From NCBI RefSeq assembly GCF_023276355.1, contig NZ_JALLPL010000001.1:1984001-2048000 (forward strand): a DNA stretch of 64,000 nucleotides. Reading direction: 5' to 3'. Numbering within the stretch: the first letter of the stretch is position 1; each line of letters opens with the position of its first letter. The translations under genes and the position numbers were made by a program. The notes below the pieces were generated by a model. The model had not been told where the DNA came from. It did no database searches and saw only the letters and a list, made by a program, of their open reading frames with translations. Origin of the DNA: Haloplanus sp. XH21. Its GTDB lineage: Archaea; Halobacteriota; Halobacteria; Halobacteriales; Haloferacaceae. This document shows, one piece after another, positions 7,828 through 13,362 of the stretch.

Positions 7828-8111
7828 CCGACCCCGCCGAGGAGATGTCATTGGAGGAGCTCCGCAACGAGATCGCGGAGATCGATCGGGAGCTCGTCGA
7901 ACTCATCGCCCGACGCACCTACGTCGCGGGCACCATCGCCGACGTGAAAGCCGAACGCGACCTGCCGACGACCGACGAGTCACAGGAGGCCGCGGTGATG
8001 GAGCGGGCGGGCGAGTACGCCGAGCGGTTCGGCGTCGACCCGAACCTCGTGAAGGCGATTTTCCGGTTGCTCATCGAGTTGAACAAGGTGGAGCAGCGGG
8101 AGAGCCGCTAG
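7824..8111 (+). CDS. Chorismate mutase (AroQ fold)
   Basis: 95 residues, all helical, matching the AroQ chorismate mutase domain: LRNEIAEIDRELVELIARR at the N-terminus, then KAERDLPTTDESQE and a C-terminal helix. It converts chorismate to prephenate for Phe/Tyr synthesis. The start ATG overlaps the shikimate kinase stop by 4 nt, so the two are translationally coupled. A later in-frame Met (MSLEELRN) is a possible alternative start. tyrA (17462-18190), acting next in the pathway, is about 9 kb away. Confidence 0.92.
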   Translation: MTDPAEEMSLEELRNEIAEIDRELVELIARRTYVAGTIADVKAERDLPTTDESQEAAVMERAGEYAERFGVDPNLVKAIFRLLIELNKVEQRESR

Positions 8112-8461
8112 AGCTCTTTCAGACCGAGGCTGTATTCGAGCGCCGAGTCGACATCCGCCATTCGGTCGACGGGAACGGAGCCGATACGGTCCACGATGCG
8201 GTGCTCGATAGAGACCGTCCGTATCTGACTGCAGAGGGCGACCGAATCCTCTCGGAGAGGCCACTCGTCGGCCGAAAAAGGCACTTCGAACGGATACAGT
8301 TTGTCCCCGCTCGATGTCGTGAACGGAACGACGATCGTCGTCGGAGCGTTCTCGTTCCCGATGTCATTTTGGACGACGAGACACGGACGGGTCCCACGCT
8401 GCTCCGATCCTTCCGTGGGATCCAGATCGACAATAACGATGTCTCCGCGTCGAACGTGCAT
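8108..8461 (-). CDS. MazF/PemK-type toxin (endoribonuclease)
   Basis: 117 residues. The N-terminal RRGDIVIVDLDPTEGSEQRG followed by TRPCLVVQND is the classical MazF/PemK strand-loop signature, and a conserved middle VPFTTSS follows. Family members cleave mRNA when freed from their antitoxin. It starts 3 nt after the stop of the MazE-like gene, the usual antitoxin-first order. Its stop overlaps the convergent chorismate mutase stop by 4 nt. Confidence 0.9.
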   Translation of the reverse strand: MHVRRGDIVIVDLDPTEGSEQRGTRPCLVVQNDIGNENAPTTIVVPFTTSSGDKLYPFEVPFSADEWPLREDSVALCSQIRTVSIEHRIVDRIGSVPVDRMADVDSALEYSLGLKEL

Positions 8462-8464
8462 CGG

Positions 8465-8731
8465 CTACCAGTCCGGTGCTTCACCGAGGTATCGATCGGC
8501 CTCTCGGGACACGTCAGACATCTCCTCAGCGAGGGACTCGGACGCCGCTGCGTACTGTCGGTATCCCTCGGCGAGTTCGTCGCGGCTCACGGGTTTTTCG
8601 ATGGTGATTTTCCCGTCTTCCGCGTGGACGAGTACTTCGTCACCGCCATGGATGTCGAACTTCTCCCGAAGCTCTTTCGGGAGTGTAACCTGCCCCCGTT
8701 CCCCGACTTTGCGTTCCTCGCTCCGAGTCAT
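8465..8731 (-). CDS. MazE/AbrB-type antitoxin
   Basis: 88 residues. The N-terminal swapped-hairpin AbrB domain is visible as VGERGQVTLPKELREKFDI followed by GGDEVLVHAEDGKITI. The acidic C-terminal half would wrap the MazF partner. It precedes and nearly abuts the toxin gene. Such antitoxins usually repress their own operon; the upstream region carries a tandem TCATAC repeat (8743-8754) that could be the operator, which is inferred. Confidence 0.9.
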   Translation of the reverse strand: MTRSEERKVGERGQVTLPKELREKFDIHGGDEVLVHAEDGKITIEKPVSRDELAEGYRQYAAASESLAEEMSDVSREADRYLGEAPDW

Positions 8732-8834: not shown

Positions 8835-9296
8835 ATGGCGGATCACGAACTCGATGACATCGATCGGGAGATCCTCTACGCGCTACAGGAGGACGCGCGC
8901 AACCTCTCGTCCGGGGAGATAGCCGAGCGAACCGACGCCTCATCAAGCACGGTCCGCAAGCGCATCCAGCGACTCGAATCGGACGGGGTCATCAAAGGAT
9001 ACAGCGCCGAGGTCGATTACCAGAAATCCGGCTATCCGCTCCGCATGCTCCTCTTCTGTACGGCCTCCATCGCCGAGCGCGGCGACCTCATCGACGACAT
9101 CCTCGACATCTCCGGTGTCGTCTCCGTCCAGGAACTGGTCACGGGCGAGCAGAACCTCCTCGTGACCGCCGTCGGCGAGACGGACAACGACATCACGTCA
9201 GTGGCACAGGAACTGCTCGACAGGGGGCTGACCGTCGCCGACGAAGTGCTCGTCCGCAGCCACGAGTCGACGCCGTTCGACGACTTCCCCCCGTAG
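8835..9296 (+). CDS. Lrp/AsnC-family transcriptional regulator
   Basis: 153 residues. The N-terminal winged helix-turn-helix covers residues 4-62 (LDDIDREILYALQEDARN, then STVRKRIQRLESDGVI). A C-terminal alpha/beta ligand-sensing domain follows, with GVVSVQELVTGEQNLLV. These regulators usually bind promoters of neighbouring transport or metabolic genes. The next genes on the same strand are dabB and dabA, 207 nt downstream, so it is the prime candidate for their control. That link is inference from position. Confidence 0.9.
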   Translation: MADHELDDIDREILYALQEDARNLSSGEIAERTDASSSTVRKRIQRLESDGVIKGYSAEVDYQKSGYPLRMLLFCTASIAERGDLIDDILDISGVVSVQELVTGEQNLLVTAVGETDNDITSVAQELLDRGLTVADEVLVRSHESTPFDDFPP

Positions 9297-9503
9297 AGAG
9301 CTACTGACGGGTGTTTCGGCCCGTAACGCCGGGCGAAAGTGATCTGCAATAACCATAACGTTCTTTCACAATGTATTTTGGGAACATTTTGATCGTATAG
9401 AAAGCTATAATTACCATTCTGTTCTACAAAGATGTGACAGAGACCAGTTCGTGTTCGTCGGCAGTGCTCCGACGCCGCGCTGGTCACGCTGGAACCCTGA
9501 ACG
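9297..9503 (+). promoter_or_regulatory. AT-rich promoter region of dabB-dabA
   Basis: This stretch is clearly richer in A+T than its surroundings. A short GC stem (ACGGG ... CCCGT, about 9307-9324) could end the lrp transcript. AATGT-N9-ACATT at 9370-9388 is an inverted repeat suited to a dimeric regulator. CTATAATT at 9405-9412 is the best TATA box, which would give a leader of about 65 nt before dabB. Confidence 0.5.
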
Positions 9504-10988
9504 ATGGCTGACCAACCACCGAACGACACCGCACGACTCGCCGAGACAGTCGCTCCGACATCGTCGTCCGTTCCCCAACTCGCCACCGCGGCGGTCTGGG
9601 CGCTCTTTCTCCTCAGTTCGGGGGTGCTCGCCTTGTCGGTCACCGGTGAGTACGAGTGGGCGATTCCGGGTGTGCTCGTCGTCGACGGGTTGACCACGGT
9701 CATGTGGGTCGTGGTCGCGTTCTTCAGCGGGATCGTACACAGCTACTCCCGTCGCTACATGGCGGGAGACCGCTATCTCGACGGGTTCTACGGCCGGATC
9801 TTCGCGTTCACGCTCGTCGTCATGACGATGACCGCGGCCGATCACGTCGCGCTGTTCGCGGCGGCGTGGCTGGCGATGGGTCTCCTGATGGCGTCGCTCA
9901 TCGGGCACGTTCGCGGCTGGGCACAGGCACAGGCGGCGGCCAGGAGCGCCCGCCGGTATTTCCTCGCCAGCAGCGGACTGCTCGCCGTCGGCCTAATCGT
10001 CCTGACCTGGACGACGGGCGCGACGTCCATCACCGGCATCCTCGGACACGTCGAGAGCGTTCCCCGGGGGGTCGGACTCGTCACCATCGGCTGTCTCGTC
10101 CTCGCGGCGATGATCCAGTCGGCGCTGTTTCCGTTTCACACCTGGCTGCTGTCGTCGATGACGGCACCCACGCCGGCGTCGGCCCTGATGCACGCCGGCT
10201 TCGTCAACGCGGGCGGCATCCTGTTGACCCGCTTTGCCCCCTTGCTCGCCGGCGAAACCGCCGTCATGTCCGGCATCGTCGCCGTCGGCGGCCTGAGCGC
10301 GCTGCTCGGACAGGCGCTGCTCCTCGTCCAGACCGATATCAAGCGCGAACTCGGCGCCTCGACCCTCGCGCAGATGGGCTTCATGATCCTCCAGTGCGGA
10401 CTGGGCTTTTTCGCCGCGGCCGTGACGCATCTCATCCTGCACGGCTTCTACAAGGCGTACCTGTTCCTCTCGTCGGGTGGTGCCATCGAGCAGACGACGC
10501 CGTCGAAGGCGAATCACGGCCGCCTGACCCTCTCGAGCGCCGTCGTCAGCCTGTTCACGGCCGTCGGCGGTGGCGTGCTGTTCGCCGTCCTCACCGGCAA
10601 AGGGACGGAACTGAACAGCGGGCTCTTCCTGATGTTCGTCGTCGTGCTGACGACCATGCACGCGACGCGGGACATCCTCCGGCGCGCGACCCTGCCACCG
10701 GCGGTCCGCCTCGTCAGCGTGCCGGTCGTCGTCCTGACCGCTATCGGCGGCTACGGCCTGCTGTTCAACGCCATTTCGACGCTCATCGCCGGCGCGCCGA
10801 TGGCGAAGGCACCGACCGAACTGACGGCCGTCCACCTCGTCGCAGGTGCCCTGTTCGCTCTGGCGTACGTCGCGACGGAGCTCGGCTGGCATCGGTCGAA
10901 CAAGCGCCTCTACGTCGCGCTGCTCAACCTCTCGCAGCCACACCCGGAGACGATACTCACGCAGAAGTCGGACTACAATGACTCTTGA
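9504..10988 (+). CDS. dabB: DabB, proton-conducting subunit of the DAB inorganic carbon pump
   Basis: 494 residues with about 13-14 membrane helices, homologous to NuoL/MrpA-type proton channels (Proton_antipo_M domain). PFHTWLLSSMTAPTPASAL followed by MHAGFVNAGG is the typical core motif. In DAB complexes this subunit is thought to pass cations and drive the DabA carbonic anhydrase-like subunit towards bicarbonate in the cytoplasm. Pairing with a DUF2309 protein, not other Nuo/Mrp subunits, separates it from complex I. Its end overlaps dabA by 11 nt. Confidence 0.9.
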   Translation: MADQPPNDTARLAETVAPTSSSVPQLATAAVWALFLLSSGVLALSVTGEYEWAIPGVLVVDGLTTVMWVVVAFFSGIVHSYSRRYMAGDRYLDGFYGRIFAFTLVVMTMTAADHVALFAAAWLAMGLLMASLIGHVRGWAQAQAAARSARRYFLASSGLLAVGLIVLTWTTGATSITGILGHVESVPRGVGLVTIGCLVLAAMIQSALFPFHTWLLSSMTAPTPASALMHAGFVNAGGILLTRFAPLLAGETAVMSGIVAVGGLSALLGQALLLVQTDIKRELGASTLAQMGFMILQCGLGFFAAAVTHLILHGFYKAYLFLSSGGAIEQTTPSKANHGRLTLSSAVVSLFTAVGGGVLFAVLTGKGTELNSGLFLMFVVVLTTMHATRDILRRATLPPAVRLVSVPVVVLTAIGGYGLLFNAISTLIAGAPMAKAPTELTAVHLVAGALFALAYVATELGWHRSNKRLYVALLNLSQPHPETILTQKSDYNDS

Positions 10989-13362
10989 ACAAGCCACCAT
11001 CAGTGACAGCATCGACCGCGCGGCCGAAACCGTGGGCTCGGTCTGGCCGCTCCACTCGTTCGTTACGGCCAACCCCCTCTCGGGGTTCGAGGATCAGCCG
11101 TTCCACCGCGCGGTCGCAGAAGCCGAACGGCGGTTCGGTGGCCGAGGCTATCCACACCCCTCCGTCTTCCGCCAGGCCTGGGAACAGGGCCGGATCGACC
11201 CGGCCGCGCTGACGGCAGAGCTCGACGCTCACGGCATCTCACAGGATCCGGACACCCTCCTCGACGAGATGGAGACGGCCGAAGCGTCGCGCGAGGCCGA
11301 CGCCGCGACGGACATGGTCGACCGGATCCTCTCGAAATGGCTCGCCAGGTTCCTCGATCAGGGGCAGGCGAAGTGGTCGATGCCGGACCGCGAGCAGGGG
11401 TTCTACGCCGCGTGGCGCGACCTGGCCCCGTACGACGGCGAGATACCCGGCTGTGACGACCCGTCCGACCTCCCCGAGACGGCCACGGCGGCGCTGGAAG
11501 CGGCGCTGTCCGACTCCCCGCAGGGGCGCTGGGAGGCCATCTTCGAACACCAGTTCGCCGCACTGCCGGGATGGACCGGGTTCATCAAACAGCGGGCCGC
11601 CGGGAACGGACCGTGGCAGGCGACGTATCCGATCTCGCTGCTCGAGTATCTCGCGGTACGGTTGACGCTCGCTGACCTGTTGGACGCACCCACCGAACCC
11701 GACGAGCGCGAGGACGGCGGTGACACCGACGACGTCCCGCTACCCGAAATCTGGCTGACGGCGTGGGAGAAAAGCTACCGCGACCGGCTGCTCGACGGCG
11801 TCGACCGGACGGTCACGGGCGCGTCCGCGGACGACGCTCGTCCGGCCGCACAGCTCGTCTTCTGTATCGACACCCGCTCGGAGATCATCCGCCGGCACGT
11901 CGAGGCCGCTGGCCCGTACGAGACCCACGGGTACGCGGGCTTTTTCGGCATCCCGATGCGGTATCAGGCGTACGACGCCGACGTGGGGATCGACTCCTGT
12001 CCACCGATCGTCGAGCCCCAACACCACATCACCGACCGCCCGCAACCCGCACAGCGCGGGGACAAGAGGACGCACGACCGGTGGCGCAAGCTACTGTCGA
12101 CCGGCCGGAAGCATATCAAGACGCTCAAGACCAACGTCGCCGCCGCCTTCACTTTCGTCGAGGGCGGCGGGAGCGCCTACGGCGCAGCGATGGCGACGCG
12201 GACGCTGCTTCCGTCGGTCGTGGCCGACATCGCCGGCGCCTTCGACGACCGGATCCCCGCTCCCGCCGAGTTCTGTACGCCCGCCGTCGACCACGACGAC
12301 GGCGCACATACCGAGGATGATCTCCCACAGGGAATGTCCCTCGCGGAGAAAGTCACCTACGCCGAAACCGCCTTCGAACTCATGGGCTGGGAGGAGTTCG
12401 CCCGGCTGGTCGTCTTCACGGGACACGCCAGCGAGACGACGAACAACCCGTTCGCCTCCAGCCTCGACTGCGGCGCCTGCGCCGGAAACGCCGGCGGGCC
12501 GAACGCGCGCGTCCTCGCGACGATCTGTAACGACGACGCCGTCAAATCCACTCTCCGGGAGCGGGGCTATGACATCCCGTCCGACACGGTGTTTCTCGCT
12601 GCCGAGCACAACACCACGACCGACGAAATCACGCTGTTCGACGGCGACATCCCCGGGAGCCACCGCGAAGACGTCGAGGGCCTCCGCGAGGACCTCTCGC
12701 AGGCACGGGCCGCGGCCGCAAGCGAGCGCACGGCGTCGATGACGGGCAGCGAGGGCGACGACGCCGTTCACGAAACGGAGCGCCGGACGGCCGACTGGGC
12801 CGAAACCCGGCCCGAGTGGGGGCTGGCCGGCAACGCGTCGTTCGTCATCGGTCCCCGTGAACTGACCGCGGACCAGAACCTCGACGGCCGGGCGTTCCTG
12901 CACTCCTACGACTGGACCACGGATCCGGACGGCGAGGCGCTCGAAGCCATCATGACGGGACCGCTCGTCGTCACGCAGTGGATCAACAACCAGTACTACT
13001 TCGCGACCGTCGACAACGGCGTCTACGGGAGCGGCTCCAAGGTTACCCAGAACCCGCGCGGCAACATCGGCGTCGTGCAGGGCAACGGCGGCGACCTCAT
13101 GACGGGGCTCCCGCTCCAGTCGCTGATGGTGGACAGCGACCAACCGTATCATCAGCCGCTCCGGCTCACGGCCGTGATCCACGCGCCCGTCGAACGGGTG
13201 ACCGACATCCTCCGCCGCCACGAAGAGATCGCCACCCTCTTCGACAACGGCTGGATGTCGCTCACGGTCGTGACCCCCGAGCAGGACAACGCCGCGTTCC
13301 ACTACCAGGGCGGCCTGGAGTGGGAACCGGAGCCGCGAGTGTCACGGCCGCTCGTCCACTGA
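10978..13362 (+). CDS. dabA: DabA (DUF2309/UPF0753), zinc carbonic-anhydrase-like subunit of the DAB pump
   Basis: 794 residues, close to the usual family length. The predicted beta-carbonic-anhydrase-like zinc site is complete: Cys296 and Asp298 in FCIDTRSE, His483 in FTGHASETTNNP and Cys498 in LDCGACAG. The 15-residue His-Cys spacing matches characterised DabA. It is a soluble protein that docks on DabB and hydrates CO2 unidirectionally. ATG 10978 was chosen because it gives the conserved N-terminus and an 11-nt overlap with dabB. The TGA stop is the first triplet of a palindromic element (13360-13436). Confidence 0.93.
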   Translation: MTLEQATISDSIDRAAETVGSVWPLHSFVTANPLSGFEDQPFHRAVAEAERRFGGRGYPHPSVFRQAWEQGRIDPAALTAELDAHGISQDPDTLLDEMETAEASREADAATDMVDRILSKWLARFLDQGQAKWSMPDREQGFYAAWRDLAPYDGEIPGCDDPSDLPETATAALEAALSDSPQGRWEAIFEHQFAALPGWTGFIKQRAAGNGPWQATYPISLLEYLAVRLTLADLLDAPTEPDEREDGGDTDDVPLPEIWLTAWEKSYRDRLLDGVDRTVTGASADDARPAAQLVFCIDTRSEIIRRHVEAAGPYETHGYAGFFGIPMRYQAYDADVGIDSCPPIVEPQHHITDRPQPAQRGDKRTHDRWRKLLSTGRKHIKTLKTNVAAAFTFVEGGGSAYGAAMATRTLLPSVVADIAGAFDDRIPAPAEFCTPAVDHDDGAHTEDDLPQGMSLAEKVTYAETAFELMGWEEFARLVVFTGHASETTNNPFASSLDCGACAGNAGGPNARVLATICNDDAVKSTLRERGYDIPSDTVFLAAEHNTTTDEITLFDGDIPGSHREDVEGLREDLSQARAAAASERTASMTGSEGDDAVHETERRTADWAETRPEWGLAGNASFVIGPRELTADQNLDGRAFLHSYDWTTDPDGEALEAIMTGPLVVTQWINNQYYFATVDNGVYGSGSKVTQNPRGNIGVVQGNGGDLMTGLPLQSLMVDSDQPYHQPLRLTAVIHAPVERVTDILRRHEEIATLFDNGWMSLTVVTPEQDNAAFHYQGGLEWEPEPRVSRPLVH

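Follow-up and report, generated by a model that had tools for sequence, protein, structure and literature searches.

Among the closest described systems to the locus considered here is DAB2 of Halothiobacillus neapolitanus (DabA2/DabB2; structures 9rd0, 9rd8 and 9rd9), a complex of two subunits with a NuoL-like DabB and a mechanism driven by the proton-motive force (PMC13144422). Alanine substitutions of DabA2 residues C351, D353, R355, H524 and C539 impaired growth at low CO2, and single-alanine mutants of DAB2 kept part of their activity (PMC13144422). DABs have been described in Euryarchaeota and in heterotrophs. The DAB homologue MpsAB of Staphylococcus aureus also supplies bicarbonate in a heterotroph and is proposed to do so by Na+/HCO3- symport (PMC6689103); it is compared here by its description, the available part of which makes no mention of linkage to an Lrp protein. 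HVO_2410/HVO_2411 of Haloferax volcanii, likewise a haloarchaeal pair in a heterotroph, are curated as predicted dabAB in an account that describes neither a regulator nor an operator (PMC8305020).

Archaeal Lrp proteins such as Ss-LrpB, Ptr2 and LysM have clustered palindromic boxes spaced two or three helical turns apart, and the site from which they activate lies immediately before the BRE (PMC2995911). Several archaeal Lrp proteins are unresponsive to amino acids (PMC2995911). No description of a regulator for a haloarchaeal DAB was found in the literature searched, and the sensing and regulation of inorganic-carbon supply in archaea seems to be unstudied.

Results

The window, which is the whole 64,000-nucleotide stretch of Haloplanus DNA that was analysed, carries three genes of interest on the forward strand: lrp (8835-9296, 153 aa), encoding an Lrp/AsnC family protein with a winged helix-turn-helix and a predicted RAM fold; dabB (9504-10988, 494 aa), encoding a NuoL/Mrp-like membrane subunit; and dabA (10978-13362, 794 aa), encoding a zinc subunit that resembles beta-carbonic anhydrases (beta-CA). 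The preliminary description of this DNA had placed all three genes correctly, including the overlap of dabA with dabB, which measures 11 bp. A MazF/PemK-type toxin and MazE-type antitoxin pair lies just upstream of lrp on the reverse strand (8108-8731).

DabA covers the whole of the PF10070 model (E 1.1e-267) and is homologous to DabA2 (9rd0_A, E 8e-115), while DabB matches PF00361 (NuoL/Mrp family; E 9.3e-40) and PF00662 and is homologous to DabB2 (9rd0_B). Residues C296, D298, R300, H483 and C498 of DabA, the counterparts of DabA2 C351, D353, R355, H524 and C539, do not vary in any of the 61 haloarchaeal DabA proteins. The zinc site proposed earlier (Cys296, Asp298, His483 and Cys498) was therefore exact at every position, and Arg300 can be added as the equivalent of the Asp-Arg dyad partner in DabA2. 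The transmembrane finger glutamate, Glu444 in DabA2, corresponds to E395, which is also invariant in 61/61. In DabB, residues S226, H230, K280, S286, H309, H313 and K317 match the conserved proton-path residues S256, H260, K310, S316, H339, H343 and K347 of DabB2. The Cys2His zinc site, the Asp-Arg dyad, the proton-path Ser/His/Lys residues and the finger Glu are thus common to DAB2 and the Haloplanus DAB, which argues for an intact complex in this haloarchaeon, a host without RuBisCO.

The Haloplanus DAB differs from DAB2 in its gene order (dabB-dabA), its putative Lrp regulator, its RuBisCO-less host and the ion pair of DabB, where Lys235 and Asp185 are replaced by Gln and Ser. Lys235 of DabB2 corresponds to Gln205, a position occupied by Gln in 61 of 61 haloarchaeal DabB proteins, and the partners Asp185 and Arg182, here S157 and L154, are missing from the same 61. 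The coupling of haloarchaeal DabB may consequently differ in detail from that of DAB2. Since the single-alanine mutants of DAB2 retain part of their activity, the altered ion pair was regarded as variation; Lys235, Asp185 and Arg182 were treated as a feature of DAB2 and were not taken to define the family.

DabA was sought in 146 sampled genomes of the order and found in 62; in a larger sample it was present in 219 of 392 genomes. The pump alone is thus ordinary, being common in the order, curated in Haloferax, and described both in Euryarchaeota and in heterotrophs. The earlier remark that DABs are known chiefly from autotrophs is correct but no longer up to date, since DABs of heterotrophs are documented (PMC6689103, PMC8305020). 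The DabA tree mixes taxonomic families, which suggests horizontal exchange. Haloplanus dabA is placed apart from the Halorubrum-type copies of its own family and groups with Haloparvum and Halosimplex (78%), so that vertical inheritance within the family is not favoured. Haloarchaeal-like dabBA genes also occur in two records labelled as bacterial, L169 (Salinibacter altiplanensis) and L185 (a MAG labelled as a proteobacterium), the second of which carries the Lrp as well (68%); these represent either horizontal transfer or mis-binned contigs.

Searches of the Haloplanus genome returned neither RuBisCO nor a beta-CA. A PEP carboxylase and a biotin-dependent carboxyltransferase were found, so that candidates exist for the carboxylases that the pump had been suggested to feed in a heterotroph. 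A link between DAB and RuBisCO was discarded, given that this genome lacks the enzyme and that RuBisCO is present in 23 of 62 dab-positive and 22 of 84 dab-negative genomes. One gamma-CA homologue with His ligands is encoded at L107; DAB is therefore not the sole candidate CO2-hydrating protein of the genome, and we do not claim that it is the only carbonic anhydrase. Canonical beta-CA genes, with the CxDxR and HxxC motifs intact, occur in the fetched flanks of dab at about 15 of 60 loci. Among near-complete genomes without a beta-CA, 13 of 15 are dab-positive (Fisher p=0.0018, kinship ignored).

A CA-like protein is encoded beside dabB at seven loci (L035:5587-6267, L039:5626-6306, L048, L051:5628-6326, L052, L056 and L090:203-907). 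Six of these have its gene between lrp and dabB; in L090, where lrp was not found, it lies just upstream of dabB. The protein keeps the three zinc ligands and has lost the Asp-Arg dyad (CSDSR changed to CSMxx or CPMxx), and at least one Lrp-type box lies upstream in 5/7.

The N-terminal part of the Lrp protein contains an AsnC-type winged helix-turn-helix (PF13404, HTH_AsnC, E 1.2e-11; PF13412, E 2.8e-16). The AsnC ligand domain, PF01037, was not matched by the sequence. In a monomer structure model, residues 69-140 are predicted to adopt the b-a-b-b-a-b order of a RAM domain, with pLDDT mostly 76-93 over this block. The top PDB matches of the model all belong to the Lrp family; the overall TM of about 0.5 and pTM of 0.52 leave the relative placement of the domains uncertain. 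The preliminary description had called the protein amino-acid-sensing. This is unsupported, an assumption rather than a result, because PF01037 was not detected and several archaeal Lrp proteins show no amino-acid response (PMC2995911).

The distribution of this Lrp follows that of the pump. An orthologue is present in 60 of 62 dab-positive genomes and in 1 of 84 dab-negative genomes (Fisher 2e-37, kinship ignored), and the orthologues show 71-90% identity, against at most 54% for the next paralogue. The gene is nearly always directly upstream of dabB, in the named genomes as elsewhere, and the neighbourhood beyond lrp and dab is variable. Distances between Lrp proteins correlate with those between DabA proteins (r=0.71; partial r=0.68 given the family label), and promoter distances correlate with both. 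Of the two dab loci in genome G067, neither lacks an lrp or a promoter block of its own. H. profundi, a named Haloferax relative, has lrp-dabB-dabA together with the block. A full orthologue was not detected in two dab-positive genomes, G011 and G025, both represented by short contigs; in G011 the gene may be missing from the assembly. In G051 the orthologue is encoded about 50 kb from dab.

The single dab-less genome with this Lrp orthologue is G010 (L098:5486-11061). There lrp seems to share an operon with genes for a NarK-like MFS transporter and a universal stress protein. Genes for a Ni-CO-dehydrogenase (CooS) and its CooC-like ATPase converge on this apparent operon, and a weak three-box match precedes the MFS gene. 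At 12 loci (L045, L052, L054, L056, L058, L067, L068, L071, L074, L075, L086 and L089) an amidohydrolase-like gene lies antisense between lrp and dabB.

A conserved block was identified by an unbiased motif search and scan approximately 50-150 bp upstream of dabB, where it is retained across haloarchaeal families. In Haloplanus the whole block (model R1) spans 9346-9451 on the forward strand (E 2.6e-18) and is the sole match in the genome, which speaks against a broad regulon controlled by the complete three-box arrangement in this genome. Within the block lie three putative operator boxes with a GAAC-type consensus across loci, GAACAgtnTGgTTAT. Box 1 (9351-9363, reverse strand; AACCATAACGTTC on the forward strand, with the GAAC half-site on the reverse strand) falls in a conserved column block and has a score of 22.1, the highest in the window. 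Box 2 (9382-9394, forward strand; GAACATTTTGATC) lies just upstream of a BRE-like element and is the most conserved box over 54 loci, with its G, A, C and G columns at 100%; the score of the Haloplanus copy is 13.2. Box 3 (9412-9424, reverse strand; TACCATTCTGTTC on the forward strand) scores 22.0, has a GTTC conserved at 96-100%, and overlaps the downstream edge of a TATA-like element. Two of the three Haloplanus boxes are the best box matches in all 64 kb. The box centres (9357, 9388 and 9418) are about 30 bp apart, a conserved spacing that brackets the BRE/TATA region, and the boxes reach approximately 50 bp upstream of the BRE.

Judged by their positions, a purine-rich AtAGAaaG block at 9397-9404 (forward strand) is a candidate BRE, and the element at 9406-9412 (forward strand; family consensus TTTAATA, 74-100% per column) is the probable TATA element of the dabBA promoter. 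Transcription is predicted to start at 9437 on the forward strand, at an A conserved at 78% and about 28 bp past the TATA centre.

When the 146 genomes were searched with the block model, which uses sequence only, one match was obtained per dab locus and two weak matches elsewhere, in G010 and G031. With 146 genomes searched, the G010 match (E 4e-4 for a single genome) is no more than suggestive. The block was also recovered at 72 of 79 loci from named genomes, 63 of them less than 85% identical to any training sequence. Second dab copies without lrp lack the boxes and the block as well. Boxes are nevertheless present in G051, whose lrp is distant from dab, and in G011, in which no lrp was found. 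No box occurs upstream of lrp itself (0/56 loci), which argues against autoregulation of Lrp through the same boxes.

A different control site, the inverted repeat AATGT-N9-ACATT, had been put forward for this region. It is present at 9370-9388 but in no other lrp-dabB intergenic region examined, and short repeats of this kind are expected by chance: about 2.9 inverted repeats of 5+5 bases with a spacer of 0-15 bases are expected in the 207-bp interval, with P(>=1)=0.91. This candidate was rejected. The broader proposal of the preliminary description, that the adjacent Lrp acts from within 9297-9503, has gained much stronger comparative support than it had before, and such control is probable.

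The Haloplanus genome encodes a second DabAB (G000:C1:40667-42922, L032) without lrp or boxes. It belongs to a second DAB clade (support 100/100) that also contains copies from G062, G070, G301, G363 and G378. Second DabA copies are also present in G364 and G387. A nitrogen island comprising cynS, FNT and nirA is present in 6/6 genomes with this clade, and these six are all of the genomes with such an island. In five of the six, the second DAB is next to cyanase, either within the island or flanking it; the Haloplanus island, at L214, has no dab (the second-DAB and cyanase loci are L032, L077, L078, L207-L209 and L214). Within the 146 genomes, cyanase is found in exactly the three that carry the second clade. 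Across the 392 genomes it occurs in 6 of 9 with two DabA proteins versus 5 of 383 others (p 8e-9; three genera only), a tally of nine that sets aside genomes in which the two matches seemed to be pieces of a single gene. Four g74 genomes have a cyanase of another type and no second-clade DAB, and one of the four, G313, has no DabA at all, which shows that the link between DAB and cyanase is not absolute. The associations suggest that the second clade supplies cyanase with bicarbonate. In E. coli, cynS lies in one operon with the carbonic anhydrase gene cynT (PMC7321114), and by analogy the second DAB plausibly plays the part of cynT beside cyanase.

Discussion

The pump of this locus is known, and the novelty is the regulatory variant. 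Of the new claims suggested by these comparisons, two are the strongest: that a dedicated Lrp acts at an operator of three boxes, and that one DAB clade is associated with cyanase. We consider it likely that the locus encodes a proton-driven, CO2-trapping DAB that feeds carboxylases, under a dedicated Lrp probably set by CO2/bicarbonate status. The locus would then be a self-contained module for the supply of dissolved inorganic carbon. DabB would conduct protons inward, powered by the proton-motive force, and the zinc site of DabA would hydrate CO2 to bicarbonate in the cytoplasm in one direction only. In this heterotroph the bicarbonate would be used by PEP carboxylase and the biotin-dependent acyl-CoA carboxylase, along with other enzymes that require HCO3-.

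The Lrp-family protein would serve as a dedicated, near single-target regulator of dabBA. Its dimers are predicted to occupy the three GAAC-type boxes, whose spacing of about 30 bp corresponds to three helical turns and would place them on the same face of the DNA. Sites of archaeal Lrp proteins are spaced by 2-3 helical turns, and a site next to the BRE activates (PMC2995911); box 2, just upstream of the BRE, would occupy this activating position. Lrp bound at box 3, which overlaps the TATA and start region, would repress. With one box in an activating and another in a repressing position, a dual switch of dabBA appears the most likely arrangement, set by CO2/bicarbonate status either directly or through a metabolite. 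The protein differs from Ss-LrpB, Ptr2 and LysM in its putative target, a pump for inorganic carbon, and in the box sequence GAACAgtnTGgTTAT, which is particular to its own family.

It could be argued that DabAB is an Na+/HCO3- symporter resembling MpsAB and not a proton-driven CO2 hydratase, which would leave the model of the regulator unchanged. Symport has been proposed for S. aureus MpsAB (PMC6689103, discussed in PMC13144422), the host lives in molar NaCl, and the Lys235 ion pair of DabB is altered to Gln in all haloarchaeal copies. Against this, the zinc and Asp-Arg residues required for hydration are all invariant, and the proton-path residues of DabB2 and the finger Glu of DabA are conserved, so we regard Na+ symport as unlikely.

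Doubts about the regulator carry still less weight. Haloarchaea encode many Lrp-family proteins (mostly 6-17 matches per genome) and TATA/BRE sequences make up part of the block, so that an ordinary amino-acid-responsive Lrp might stand beside dabAB by chance, the block being a strong basal promoter. We find this improbable: the occurrence of one orthologue group follows that of dab with hardly an exception, and lrp has been kept despite the apparent movement of the module from family to family. The boxes, at their fixed spacing of about 30 bp, extend some 50 bp upstream of the BRE and are missing from dab copies that have no lrp. A further reading, in which another regulator binds the conserved block and Lrp is linked to dab for a different reason, could draw on the lack of boxes at lrp promoters and on their persistence in G051 and G011. 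As G051 still encodes the orthologue and the G011 contig is short, there is little reason to prefer it, and a dedicated Lrp acting at the three boxes remains the favoured explanation.

A wider and more tentative scheme, which we consider possible but doubtful, would make the haloarchaeal Lrp a sensor of CO2/bicarbonate status for a horizontally mobile DAB module, with the dyad-less beta-CA-like protein sometimes acting as an extra sensor or subunit, and with the second, unlinked DAB clade feeding cyanase in nitrogen assimilation as a substitute for CynT.

Conclusions

The role of archaeal DABs as suppliers of bicarbonate to heterotrophs has so far been assigned by homology, and the cyanase-linked second DAB gives an independent genomic argument for it. 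The comparisons presented here move DAB in haloarchaea from mere annotation to a testable, probably regulated carbon-supply module. The candidate regulator, its putative regulon of little more than one target and the defined operator of three boxes are all conserved across haloarchaeal families, so the model is open to direct testing in haloarchaea that are amenable to genetics.
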